A DNA stretch of 35,089 nucleotides from Flavobacteriaceae bacterium (GTDB taxonomy: Bacteria > Bacteroidota > Bacteroidia > Flavobacteriales > Flavobacteriaceae), in assembly GCA_947457105.1 (NCBI GenBank), contig CANGUP010000014.1, forward strand, positions 1-35,089, read 5' to 3'. Numbering within the stretch: the first letter of the stretch is position 1; the number at the start of each line of letters is the position of its first letter. Position numbers and translations under genes: made by a program. The notes beneath the pieces were generated by a model, which saw only the letters and a list, made by a program, of their open reading frames with translations, did not search any database and was not told the DNA's origin. Of the stretch, positions 9,178 through 21,180 are shown one piece after another.

Positions 9178-11343
9178 TTATTTATTCAAATTTCTAATTT
9201 GTTTTAATTTGTCTTTCCAAGAAATTAATTCTTCTTTATGTCTTTCAATTGTTTTTCTAACCTCAGTTACAATTGAATTTTCTTTCTTAGCATTCTTAGT
9301 GTTTTGGAAGAACTGAATGTTGTTTTCTAATTGGAAAATTTCATTTTGAACTTCATCAATTTTTCTCATGATGAAGATTTTTTCATTATCTAATTTTCTA
9401 CTGTCTTCAGAACCAGCAATGTTATCCAAACGATTAGCAAAACGCAATTGCTCGCTTTCTTTTTTGCTTGAACTTAATTTTTCAAACAAAGCATCTAGAA
9501 TTTTATTGAATTTTCCTTCCACATGTCTTCTGTTAAAAGGAACTCTTCCAATAGATTTCCACGCTTCAATATGTGCTTTTATAGCATCTAAATCGGTTTT
9601 GTGATCACCAACTAATTCAAATGAACGCAACGTTTCTAAATATTCTTTTTTCTTTTCAAAAGCAGCAACTTCTTCAGCATTTTCTTCTTTTTTGCTGTCT
9701 TTTAAACGCTCAAAATAATGATTACAAGCCGCTTTAAATTCATCCCAAAGTTTATCAGAAAACTTTCTTGGCACATGTCCAACTTGTTTCCAATCTTCTT
9801 GAATTTGCTTCATTAAAGGCGTTGTAGCAGCAAAATCTTCACTTTCTTTCAATTCGTTTGCTCTGTCTACAAGTGCTTGTTTTTTGCTTAAATTATCGTT
9901 TTGATCTTTCTTAATGTCTTTGTAGAAAGAGTTTTTCAAAACATTAAAATCACGAACGGCATTTTTAAATTTTGCCCAAGTAGCTTCATTCACTTCACTT
10001 GGAACTTTTCCTGTAGCAAAGAATTGATTTCTCAAAGCTTCCACTTTTACAATTTGGTTCAACCAAGCTTGGTGCGAATCTACTTTCTCTTGAGCTAAAA
10101 CTTCTAATTGCGCAATGATTTCGTTTTTCTTTTCAAGATTTTCGGTTTCTTTTGCTCTAAAACTTTCGAAAAAAGTTTCACGTTTGTCGTGCATTTGTTT
10201 GGTCAATTCACTGAATTGTTTCCATAATTCTTCACGGTGTTCTCTAGAAACAGGTCCAATATCTTCTTTCCAAATACGGTGTAAATCTTGTAATTCACGG
10301 AACGATTTGTTGATGTCAGTTTCATGAATTAATTCACCAACACGAGCTATAATTTTGTTTTTTAATTCTAAATTGTGTTTAAATTCTTGATCGCGAGCAT
10401 CTCTATCCAAATGCAAGAAATCATAAAAATTCTCAATGTGGAAATGATAATTATTCCAAACGTGGTTGTACTTGTCTTTTGGAATTGGTCCAGCATTTTT
10501 CCAACGTTCTCTAATATCATTTAACTGTTTTAGAGCATTGGCAATATTTCCTGTTGAATTGTTTACCAAGTTTTTCAACTCTTCAACAATCGCCATTCTA
10601 TTTTCTAAATTCGATTTCAAATTATTTTGAAGCGATTTAAAATGTGTATTTTTCTTATCTCTGTATTGATTGTATAACGAATCAAATTTTGTTTTTAATG
10701 GAAAACTATAATGGAAATCCTCTGTAGTATCTGGATTTTCTGCATGAAATTCATCTCTTTTTTCATCCATAAAATGGTGAAATTTAGATAAAAATGCTTT
10801 TTTAACTTCTTCAACATGTTCGCGAACCGACATTACTTGGTCAGTTGCAACAAGTGTTTCCAACTCTTCAACCAATTTTTCCATTGGCAAAGCTTCATAA
10901 TCTTGCAACGGAATGTCATAACGACCTTTTACCGTTTCATCTTCGCTTTCTTCTGCATTCGCATTAGCAATAGCGTTCATTGCAAAATCATTTTCATCTT
11001 CTAAAACGATAGTGTCATCTGCAACTTGTTCGTCTGTTAATTCAATAACATTTTCTACAACTTCTTCTGTTGTGTTATCGATTGTTGGAACTTCTTCAGG
11101 TGTTTCTGTAATTTGTTCACCTATAAGGTCTTCAACTTCTAGAGCAGTTTCTTGTTCAGCTTCAGCTACTAATGGAGCTTCAACTTCGGTATCAGGAACC
11201 AATTCAACTTCTGTTTCAACAGCTTCTGCGATTGTTTCAACTTCTTGATTTTCAGTTTGAACAGCTTCTTGAGAGGCATTGTTTACGTTTCCATCTGTCT
11301 CGTTTTCGTTAACTGACAGGTTATCATTCTTTTCTTCTAACAT
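9178..11343 (-). CDS. DUF349 repeat protein with acidic N-terminal region
   Basis: Repeated W-K-x-x-G-x-x-(P)-(R/K) units (ERWKNAGPIPKDKYNHVWNNY, EDWKQVGHVPRKFSDKLWDEF, EAWKSIGRVPFNRRHVEGKF). Confidence 0.92.
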   Translation of the reverse strand: MLEEKNDNLSVNENETDGNVNNASQEAVQTENQEVETIAEAVETEVELVPDTEVEAPLVAEAEQETALEVEDLIGEQITETPEEVPTIDNTTEEVVENVIELTDEQVADDTIVLEDENDFAMNAIANANAEESEDETVKGRYDIPLQDYEALPMEKLVEELETLVATDQVMSVREHVEEVKKAFLSKFHHFMDEKRDEFHAENPDTTEDFHYSFPLKTKFDSLYNQYRDKKNTHFKSLQNNLKSNLENRMAIVEELKNLVNNSTGNIANALKQLNDIRERWKNAGPIPKDKYNHVWNNYHFHIENFYDFLHLDRDARDQEFKHNLELKNKIIARVGELIHETDINKSFRELQDLHRIWKEDIGPVSREHREELWKQFSELTKQMHDKRETFFESFRAKETENLEKKNEIIAQLEVLAQEKVDSHQAWLNQIVKVEALRNQFFATGKVPSEVNEATWAKFKNAVRDFNVLKNSFYKDIKKDQNDNLSKKQALVDRANELKESEDFAATTPLMKQIQEDWKQVGHVPRKFSDKLWDEFKAACNHYFERLKDSKKEENAEEVAAFEKKKEYLETLRSFELVGDHKTDLDAIKAHIEAWKSIGRVPFNRRHVEGKFNKILDALFEKLSSSKKESEQLRFANRLDNIAGSEDSRKLDNEKIFIMRKIDEVQNEIFQLENNIQFFQNTKNAKKENSIVTEVRKTIERHKEELISWKDKLKQIRNLNK

Positions 11344-18052: not shown

Positions 18053-18574
18053 ATGCAAATCATCCTACTGTTTTCAATATTATTAAATCCGATTTTATTA
18101 TTTGATTTTTCAAAAGGCAGCAACTTATCTAGTTGGAAAGTTGTTGATGATGGCGTCATGGGTGGCGTTTCCTCAAGTGATTTCTTTGTTGACGCTAATG
18201 GAAATGGAACCTTCAAAGGAACAGTTTCTACCGACAATAATGGTGGATTTTGTTCGGTACGTCATTTTTTTAATCCAATAAAGCTAACAGATAAAAGTGT
18301 TTTTAAAATCCGTTTGAAAGGTGACGGGAAAAAATACCAGTTTAGAGTTAAGAAAAGTGAGAGTGATTATTATTCATACATCTACGAATTTCAAACTTCA
18401 ACGGAATGGGAAACAATAGAAATTCCTGTAAATAAATTATATGCTTCTTTTAGAGGAAGAACTCTTCAACTTCCTAATTATGATGGTCAAAGCTTAGAAG
18501 AAATAGCATTTCTAATAGGCAATAAGAGAAATGAAAATTTTGAATTACTTATAGATAAAATTGAGGTTGAATGA
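18053..18574 (+). CDS. CIA30 family (NADH:ubiquinone oxidoreductase intermediate-associated protein 30-like) protein
   Basis: FDFSKGSNLSSWKVVDDGVMGGVSSSDFFVDANGNGTFKGTVSTDNNGGFCSVR is characteristic of CIA30. Confidence 0.9.
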   Translation: MQIILLFSILLNPILLFDFSKGSNLSSWKVVDDGVMGGVSSSDFFVDANGNGTFKGTVSTDNNGGFCSVRHFFNPIKLTDKSVFKIRLKGDGKKYQFRVKKSESDYYSYIYEFQTSTEWETIEIPVNKLYASFRGRTLQLPNYDGQSLEEIAFLIGNKRNENFELLIDKIEVE

Positions 18575-18649: not shown

Positions 18650-18892
18650 CTAATTAAAAAATAATTCAAGAATTCCAATAGTCAGCAAAATAAAAACACC
18701 CAAAACAATAAAGCTAATTGATCCCCAATATAATTTAAATTCCCAATAATCATTAAAGTACTCAGATAAGTTGTCTCTTTTTATTCCAACTTTTGGATTA
18801 CCCTTCTTTCTAAATTTAAAATAATGAATGGCAATTCCAATTACAATTAAACAAATTGCTGTCAGTATTAATTGAATCATTTCTGGAATCAT
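18650..18892 (-). CDS. Small two-TM hypothetical protein
   Basis: ORF listed to 18946, but its first codons (MVVIFKL) are encoded by a copy of an intergenic repeat; Met at 18892 (MIPEMIQLILTAICLIVIG...) is a more plausible start. Confidence 0.6.
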   Translation of the reverse strand: MIPEMIQLILTAICLIVIGIAIHYFKFRKKGNPKVGIKRDNLSEYFNDYWEFKLYWGSISFIVLGVFILLTIGILELFFN

Positions 18893-18926
18893 ATCTTTTT
18901 CGGTATCGGGGTAATTAATGATTAGT

Positions 18927-18963
18927 AACTTGAAGATAACCACCATAAACGATACAAATCTAT
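18927..18963 (-). repeat. 37-bp repeat, copy 1
   Basis: AACTTGAAGATAACCACCATAAACGATACAAATCTAT; 34/37 identical to 19678-19714. Confidence 0.85.
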
Positions 18964-18978
18964 ACTAAATTTTTTTGT

Positions 18979-19001
18979 TAGCACGAATTGCAAATTCGCT
19001 A
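18979..19001. repeat. REP-like hairpin
   Basis: TAGC-ac-GAATT-gca-AATTC-GCTA: 9-bp stem with a 2-nt bulge. Confidence 0.6.
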
Positions 19002-19021
19002 TCTGGAAGTAGTTATTTCTC

Positions 19022-19648
19022 TTATTTTTTATTAATTAGTTCAGTAGTTAGTTCCCATATAGTTGACTTTCCAAATTCACCAAAGTATGATATATATTTT
19101 CCATTTTTATCAATGACTACAGCACTAAAACACGGATAATGTAATTCAAAAAATGTTTTTTCAATAAATTGATTATTATCTTTTTCCCATTTTACTTGTC
19201 TTGGATGATAATATTTTAAATTTTCATCATCTTTATATATCCAAAAATGATTGAATTTAGTAATTTTATTAAGTTTTTTTAAATAATCATTATCAAAAAT
19301 ATTCCATCTAGAAGATCTATCCACTCTATTACAATTATCTTTTCCGGGATAATAAATAATTACAATTATTTCATAAATTAGTTCTTTATTTGGTAATAGA
19401 TTTTTTTGGAATTTTTTAAAAATGCTATCATTAAGCTGTCCGTAGTTTTTTCTTTTAATTAATAATGATGTTATAAGAGTATCGTTTTCAAAATATAAAT
19501 CTAAATTTCTTTCATAATTTTTCTGTTTATAAAAATTTGATTCAGTTACTTCTTCAAAATTATCGTTATAAAAAATTTTCTTTTTTGCTTGAGAAAAGCT
19601 TAAATTAATAATAAATAGTAGTAATGTAATTGAAAGATATTTCTTCAT
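19022..19648 (-). CDS. Hypothetical secreted protein
   Basis: Signal peptide MKKYLSITLLLFIINLSFSQA; 208 aa; FHLYP-like family not recognised. Confidence 0.75.
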   Translation of the reverse strand: MKKYLSITLLLFIINLSFSQAKKKIFYNDNFEEVTESNFYKQKNYERNLDLYFENDTLITSLLIKRKNYGQLNDSIFKKFQKNLLPNKELIYEIIVIIYYPGKDNCNRVDRSSRWNIFDNDYLKKLNKITKFNHFWIYKDDENLKYYHPRQVKWEKDNNQFIEKTFFELHYPCFSAVVIDKNGKYISYFGEFGKSTIWELTTELINKK

Positions 19649-19677
19649 TTTAGTTTTTTTTTGGTAAAATTACTGCC

Positions 19678-19714
19678 AACTTGAAGATAACGACTATAAA
19701 TGATACAAATCTAT
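19678..19714 (-). repeat. 37-bp repeat, copy 2
   Basis: AACTTGAAGATAACGACTATAAATGATACAAATCTAT; 34/37 identical to copy 1. Confidence 0.85.
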
Positions 19715-19823
19715 CCCAACTTACTACTTAATGCCTTAAATTGGTTATTTGTATTTCAAATATACTATTTTTTAATAATAAATACTCAGTAAAGTATGTA
19801 GCTTGTTTTTTGTTTACATAAAA

Positions 19824-19857: not shown

Positions 19858-21129
19858 TTACTTCAAAATTGTCTGTTTTCTATCTGGTCCAACAGAAACT
19901 ATTTTTATTGGTACTTCTACTTCTTTTTCTATGAATTCGATGTAGTCTTTGAGTTCTTTTGGTAGGCTTTCAAAAGTGGTTAAACCTGTTAAATCGGCTT
20001 GCCATCCTTTGAATTCGGTGTAAATTGGTGTTACGTTTTCTTCTTCGATGTTGTAAGGTAAATGTTGGATAACTTCTCCTTTGTAGTTGTAAGCTGTAGC
20101 AACTTTCAAAGTTTCAAATCCTGATAAAACATCGCCTTTCATCATCATTAATTGCGTTACACCATTCACTTGAATTGCATATTTCAAGGCAACTAAATCC
20201 AACCAACCGCAACGTCTTTTTCTTCCAGTTACTGAGCCAAATTCGTTTCCAACTTTTGCCATAACATCACCCGCATCGCCAAAATCTTCTGTAGGAAATG
20301 GTCCTGAACCAACACGAGTAGTGTAAGCTTTGAAAATTCCGTAAACTTCTTTGATTTTATTTGGTGCAATTCCTAAACCAGTACAAGCTCCAGCAGCAGT
20401 TGTATTTGATGATGTTACAAATGGATACGTTCCAAAATCTACATCTAACAATGAACCTTGTGCACCTTCGCAAAGAATTGATTTTCCTGCTTTTTGTGCT
20501 TGTGCCAAATATTCTTCACTATCAATGAATGTAAGTTTTTGTAAATCCTTTATGGCATCAAAGAATTCTTTTTCTAATTCAGGTAAATTGTATTGAATAT
20601 CAACATTGTAGAAAGCAATCATGGCTTCGTGTTTGTCTGCTAAAGCTCTGTAACGTTCTTTAAAATCTTCTAATTCGATATCACCAACACGAATTCCGTT
20701 TCTACCAGTTTTGTCCATATAAGTTGGTCCAATTCCTTTTAAAGTAGAACCAATTTTAGCTTTACCTTTTGAAGCTTCAGAAGCGGCGTCAAGTAATCGG
20801 TGTGTTGGAAGAATTAAATGTGCTTTTCTAGAAATGATTAATTTAGATTTGATGTCCAAATTGAATTTTGCTAAACCATCGATTTCACTTTTGAAAACGA
20901 CAGGATCGATTACGACACCATTTCCAATAATATTGATATTGTTATCATGAAAAATTCCAGAAGGAATGGTTCTCAAAACGTGTTTAATTCCATCAAATTC
21001 TAAAGTATGTCCTGCATTTGGGCCACCTTGAAAACGAGCAATAATATCGTATTTTGAGGTAAGTACGTCAACGATTTTTCCTTTTCCTTCGTCACCCCAT
21101 TGTAATCCGAGTAGTAAATCTACGGTCAT
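19858..21129 (-). CDS. purA: adenylosuccinate synthase
   Basis: MTVDLLLGLQWGDEGKGKIVD, GGPNAGHT, GIGPTYMDK, GRKRRCGWLDLV. ATG at 21129 preferred over the ORF-track start at 21159. Confidence 0.97.
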   Translation of the reverse strand: MTVDLLLGLQWGDEGKGKIVDVLTSKYDIIARFQGGPNAGHTLEFDGIKHVLRTIPSGIFHDNNINIIGNGVVIDPVVFKSEIDGLAKFNLDIKSKLIISRKAHLILPTHRLLDAASEASKGKAKIGSTLKGIGPTYMDKTGRNGIRVGDIELEDFKERYRALADKHEAMIAFYNVDIQYNLPELEKEFFDAIKDLQKLTFIDSEEYLAQAQKAGKSILCEGAQGSLLDVDFGTYPFVTSSNTTAAGACTGLGIAPNKIKEVYGIFKAYTTRVGSGPFPTEDFGDAGDVMAKVGNEFGSVTGRKRRCGWLDLVALKYAIQVNGVTQLMMMKGDVLSGFETLKVATAYNYKGEVIQHLPYNIEEENVTPIYTEFKGWQADLTGLTTFESLPKELKDYIEFIEKEVEVPIKIVSVGPDRKQTILK

Positions 21130-21180
21130 TGTGTTGTTGTTTATTGTTAGTTGAGACAAGGCAATTCCTTGTCTTTACGA

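Follow-up and report, generated by a model that had tools for sequence, protein, structure and literature searches.

Gene and repeat content of the locus

The window (the whole analysed stretch of 35,089 nucleotides) harbors two small minus-strand genes lodged between purA and a CIA30 gene, as originally predicted, and each of them is preceded by a copy of the same repeat (Table 1). On the minus strand this repeat has a length of 45 nt (18927-18971 and 19678-19722, copies 87% identical, same orientation, start-to-start distance 751 bp) and encompasses the 37-bp element of the original prediction, which proved to be real (34/37 identical, same orientation, 751 bp apart). The start codons (ATG 19648 and ATG 18892) are situated 29-34 bp beyond the respective copies, in agreement with the ~30-35 bp that had been proposed, and the second gene has an additional in-frame ATG upstream (at 18946, inside the repeat), from which its product would measure 98 aa instead of 80 aa. 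A TAGATTTG box that resembles the Bacteroidetes -7 motif (TAnnTTTG) is present in both copies, and the repeat does carry a shared 5' region, one of the two roles suggested for it at the outset.

Table 1. Positions of genes, repeats and site-like features in and around the purA-CIA30 interval of the window.
Feature	Position	Strand	Remark
CIA30 gene (PF08547)	18053-18574	+	conserved right border where present
80-aa two-TM orphan protein, probable cargo	18650-18892	-	ORF
repeat copy 2	18926-18971	-	read as a partial attI-type site, in the place expected for the attC of the first unit
REP-like palindrome GTTAGCACGAATTGCAAATTCGCTATC	18977-19003	.	between first gene and copy 2
orphan gene for a 208-aa secreted protein (probable cassette cargo)	19022-19648	-	homologs in congeners, unrelated flanks
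repeat copy 1	19678-19722	-	read as the 3' half of an attI-type site
probable decayed attI-type leader (copy 1 + upstream half)	19677-19771	-	attI profile match, orthologous leaders
TATATTTG promoter-like box of the leader	about 19757-19764	-	
purA	19858-21159	-	conserved left border of hotspot

Allowing up to 3 mismatches, a 36-base pattern matched the window just twice, at the two repeat copies (0 matches expected, 100 shuffles), and Rfam yielded no family at the repeat. At the same tolerance a third close copy was absent from the source genome assembly (G000; 3.02 Mb, 93% complete, 229 contigs), and none of the 297 congeners searched had a close copy; the loose-pattern matches in G000:C108 and G155 fall within coding sequence and were regarded as chance. 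Confinement of the repeat to this pair, which the original prediction would have taken as a sign of simple local duplication, thus holds literally for close copies but misleads, since the site family is recognisable in relatives only at profile level: more diverged relatives of the repeat occupy the equivalent place in four related genomes.

The 80-aa two-TM protein has no family at curated cut-off, and the 208-aa one has none in Pfam, NCBIfam or PADLOC; the structure of the latter is predicted confidently (mean pLDDT 86), and a fold search returned weak thioredoxin-like matches. Homologs of the 208-aa protein were recovered from 36 of 396 other congeners and have other surroundings in those examined, the similarity to the closest one (69%) being limited to the gene and ~20 bp on each side, while no flanking repeat was common to the homologs across 20 other genomes. 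By its behaviour the gene is a travelling orphan. Three homologs lie in settings of their own: one heads a cassette array with attC sites (G138, L032 7168-9172, minus strand), one is found between copies of an unrelated 23-bp direct repeat (G124; L035, oriented 9635-9657 and 10354-10376), and one occurs as a tandem duplicate (G279, L042 9119-10369; ~80% identity over 630 bp).

The purA-CIA30 interval in close relatives

The examination of the locus in close relatives, as recommended in the original prediction, revealed that the gene content differs and that the leader is kept. Genomes with 91-95% identical purA differ entirely in the small genes of the purA-CIA30 interval: G048 has a lipoprotein gene among others, G040 encodes a protein with an HNH-like motif and G142 two secreted proteins, yet other small genes are present in G157, G068 and G199, and in G013 and G368 there is a single small gene or none. 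Where the contig extends that far (G040, G142 and G157) CIA30 is found on the far side, and in G068 it is absent. Following the purA terminator, the window, G048, G040, G157 and G142 have in common a ~95-bp leader, which carries the TATATTTG box, ends with ...TTTATRGYYGWTATNTNCAAGTT, and has unrelated sequence directly behind it. Copy 1 of the window is the end of this leader and copy 2 its 3' half, a second leader copy of the same kind (3' half) being found in G142 (L075:4114-4183). Furthermore, the last ~69 bp of purA together with its terminator are duplicated downstream in G048 (L073:4289-4357) and G157 (L076:1466-1533), and in both genomes CIA30-side sequence is joined ahead of the duplicated purA end, an arrangement suggestive of unequal exchange of the interval as a whole.

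A probable integron system in Flavobacterium

A search with the leader pattern recovered four further copies, three of them in G013 and the fourth in G199 (Flavobacterium sp. LE19-8.1G; L107 = L112). In the latter the leader is positioned directly behind the gene of a 344-aa tyrosine recombinase and ahead of a series of cassettes (GTTACCAGTA..TACTGGTAAC, GTTAGCAGAT..ATCTGCTAAC, GTTAGAGGTT..AACCTCTAAC and GTTAGGCGAA..TTCGCCTAAC), with a hairpin of 119-149 bp after each cassette end and then the next GTT. Relatives of this integrase gene were found at 79 loci (scan with one genome per species), mostly in Flavobacterium, and most of the Flavobacterium loci display behind it a TAnnTTTG box, then a pair of short hairpins of lineage-dependent sequence, and finally ..TATATACWA|GTTR. 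The leader stands 3' of the integrase in about 61 loci, and the first cassette starts at AA|GTTR. By its layout, this Flavobacterium leader is the predicted attI site of the system. In G013 the three orphan attI-type leaders (L108:14572-15023, L109 near 13865 and L110 near 16813) each head an attC cassette array and each follow a copy of a 118-aa HTH (PF13443) gene in place of the integrase, that genome having nothing closely homologous to the 344-aa integrase.

Complementary cassette starts and ends are present in most arrays (the automatic cassette chains include chance links, mainly at GTTT starts). The inter-cassette hairpins, considered for the part unused in finding them, gave a mean z of -2.5 against shuffles, as compared to -0.05 for control segments. 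An attC model, for which we used 48 hairpins of 108-126 bp only and with folding support, rests on an alignment with a three-helix structure (90.6% paired cells) and a covariation of 0.58 (0.17 shuffled; 0/500 shuffles as high; above all slid controls); as this set favours structured hairpins, the unbiased support is that of the z-score comparison. Again by layout, the inter-cassette hairpins are the predicted attC sites.

The 344-aa integrase passes NCBIfam NF040815 (220.4 bits, cut-off 220) and remains below the cut-off of the integron integrase family TIGR02249 (199.8 bits, cut-off 265), which it matches in two stretches. In the three genomes searched, TIGR02249 matched at 2-176 and about 238-315 only, none of them above the cut-off, leaving its positions 177-237 unmatched, and at this same gap the alignment to IntI4 (2a3v) breaks, with ~42 residues fewer in the integrase. 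In 69/71 relatives, 58-59 residues separate the K-D-R motif from H-x-x-R. The IntI-specific insertion is reported to be essential for integron function (PMC8138268), and this additional domain is held to be a defining characteristic of IntI (PMC9668308). The genus system (G000:C49 included) comprises tandem cassettes bounded by attC with conserved pairing, and an attI-type site beside the integrase with the first cassette at GTT; by anatomy it works like an integron, but its integrase (again including that of G000:C49) is devoid of the IntI-specific domain and is not an IntI in the strict sense.

The source genome itself contains such a complete system: an integrase gene with 76% identity (G000:C49:17008-18039) is followed by an attI and by cassettes, the first of which is GTTGGCGGTA..TACCGCCAAC, and of the 25 attC matches in the whole assembly 3 belong to this integron. 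The statement that no recombinase is to be seen is accordingly true for the window but not for the genome. The G000:C49 attI is of another sequence subtype than the purA-locus site, and the orphan site of the window was therefore not recently copied from it.

The purA-locus leader as a probable attI-type site

An attI profile derived from integrase-adjacent leaders of the GCCATTTTATGGC subtype (purA-locus sequences excluded) finds the purA-locus leaders exactly in place (G048 E 5e-7, G040 5e-7, G157 6e-4, G142 0.02). With a second profile, to which the orthologous purA leaders were added and from which the window sequence was excluded, copy 1 is the best match in the 35-kb window, albeit a weak one (19754-19677, 78 nt, E 0.016-0.05), and copy 2 is the third-best (3' 41 nt, profile positions 48-88 only); by themselves, these scores of the window copies are of borderline strength (E 0.016-0.5). 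The window leader ends with CAA|GTTG, where the cassette begins, and the 208-aa unit starts with GTTGGCAGTAATTTTA, as do many cassettes of the genus.

The complementary ends of the purA-locus cassettes in G048 and G040 beat all 2000 random starts, and the G048 cassette has an attC (77.9 bits). At the G142 and G157 purA loci complementary ends were not significant and attC was absent, the ends of the second G142 unit (GTTATCTC..GAGATAAC) remaining unsupported by the null test (p 0.16). For the 208-aa unit no complementary cassette end was found in the window (copy 1, p 0.96), the one obtained for copy 2 (p 0.01) lies 2.4 kb off, beyond CIA30, and was treated as chance, and the attC model gives no match in the window at E <= 1, by which the palindrome behind the 208-aa gene was ruled out as an attC. 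The loci thereby form a series, from matching ends plus attC (G048), through matching ends only (G040), to decayed ones (G157, G142 and the window), and the window, having neither ends nor attC, represents its decayed end. From position and this graded series, we consider that the window leader is likely rather than certain to be of attI type.

Taken together, the above observations make it probable, as judged from comparative sequence analysis, that the repeats represent what is left of an attI-type docking site of an integron and that the 208-aa and 80-aa genes are captured cassette cargo. Copy 1 together with the upstream half would constitute an attI of full length, though decayed, that follows purA and lacks an adjacent integrase, and copy 2 the 3' half of an attI-type site, which may have originated as a partial-attI cassette end or by local duplication. 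In the intact system, a circular single-gene cassette would be taken up through recombination of its attC hairpin with attI (at AA|GTTR) by the 344-aa tyrosine recombinase, and every newly acquired gene would come to lie immediately after the leader with its promoter-like box; on the purA-locus site the integrase would act in trans. Recombination in the genus system is something that we infer from anatomy and comparison, and we read the window locus as most likely an integrase-less relic, with no attC left. The repeat-plus-gene cassettes that had been envisaged at the outset thus stand in so far as the layout is of cassette type, a copy precedes each gene and, in the relatives, genes turn over behind a kept leader; the platform, on the other hand, would be a decayed attI and not one of homology between repeats, and its copy 2 amounts to just the 3' half of a site.

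An alternative which we regard as unlikely is that the repeat is a shared 5' regulatory piece only (the promoter/leader of one orphan gene duplicated locally, or else a promoter that is mobile), the locus itself having no integron. The existence of just two close copies, both with the TAGATTTG box resembling TAnnTTTG, and the partial nature of copy 2, which has no attC neighbour, are in line with it, and a local duplication of the leader may indeed account for copy 2; it leaves unexplained, however, why the orthologous leaders of the relatives match integrase-adjacent attI, why different genes start right behind the same ...AAGTT, and why G048 and G040 have matching cassette ends. Still less probable is that the purA-CIA30 interval is an ordinary homologous-recombination hotspot, in which orphan genes are swapped via the flanks and the repeat is incidental: gene content varies also in the leader-less G068, G199, G013 and G368, in G157 the incoming piece came with another purA 3' end, and a second copy of the purA 3' end is present in both G048 and G157, but this reading would account neither for a leader that is retained as the adjoining gene is replaced, nor for the attC and the ends specific to cassettes. 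Flank exchange and cassette capture may both act at the locus.

Relation to known systems and distribution

The Flavobacterium system shares with chromosomal integrons and CALIN the integrase gene, the attI, the tandem single-gene cassettes with attC hairpins (layout R'-L'-L''-R'', AAC/GTT core) and the occurrence of attC also away from the integrase within the same genomes. It differs from chromosomal integrons by an integrase without the IntI-specific region (below the integron-integrase cut-off) whose gene has the same orientation as the cassettes, and by an attI with two lineage-specific hairpins. The window locus has no attC and is therefore not a CALIN. Its proposed order of attI, gene, partial attI and gene, found also in G142, resembles that of the delta-attI-type cassettes, which are described in mobile integrons of classes 1 and 2 and were functionally tested (PMC12901181), whereas the arrangement in the window is decayed, known from sequence, and of a kind that simple duplication would equally produce. 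Single chromosomal cassettes away from the integrase are likewise a feature of attG insertion (summarised in PMC12901181), in which the host site is an unrelated genomic one, while at the purA locus it resembles attI. As for the XerA/XerD-type recombinases, the core of the integrase has XerA-like proteins (4a8e, 5hxy) as nearest solved structures and it passes NF040815, but it possesses ~70 extra N-terminal residues and adjoins attI/attC arrays; a second, Xer-like gene of the same genomes has 33-36% identity to it.

Complete integrons are reported to be very rare in Bacteroidetes, with one Salinibacter genome (PMC9024848), and no description of the Flavobacterium variant was found in the literature searched, a search that lay outside preprints and most subscription journals; the genus system looks like a new integron variant, its novelty being provisional. 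We lean towards the view that ~40% of Flavobacterium species carry integrons missed by standard integrase criteria, as their recombinase would handle attC hairpins without the IntI-specific domain, and that orphan attI sites (at purA here, at the HTH gene in G013) act, or once acted, as extra docking points. If this is true, the need for the IntI domain in recombining folded attC becomes directly testable and a large unexplored pool of cassette genes is opened; the window locus would be of value mainly as a pointer to a widespread integron variant, the integrase of which is without the IntI domain.

Integrase relatives (E <= 1e-80) are present in 103 of the 248 sampled genomes of the genus, some of them broken. 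Many contigs (L112-L190) terminate no more than a few hundred bases from the integrase, as if cassette arrays broke short-read assemblies, on account of which the integron content of these genomes is probably underestimated. Outside Flavobacteriia, relatives of the integrase were observed in WOR-3 MAGs (L181, L182), Orenia (L179) and Geofilum (L186), and the WOR-3 loci have a hairpin leader too, which ends with TATAAACAAGTT.
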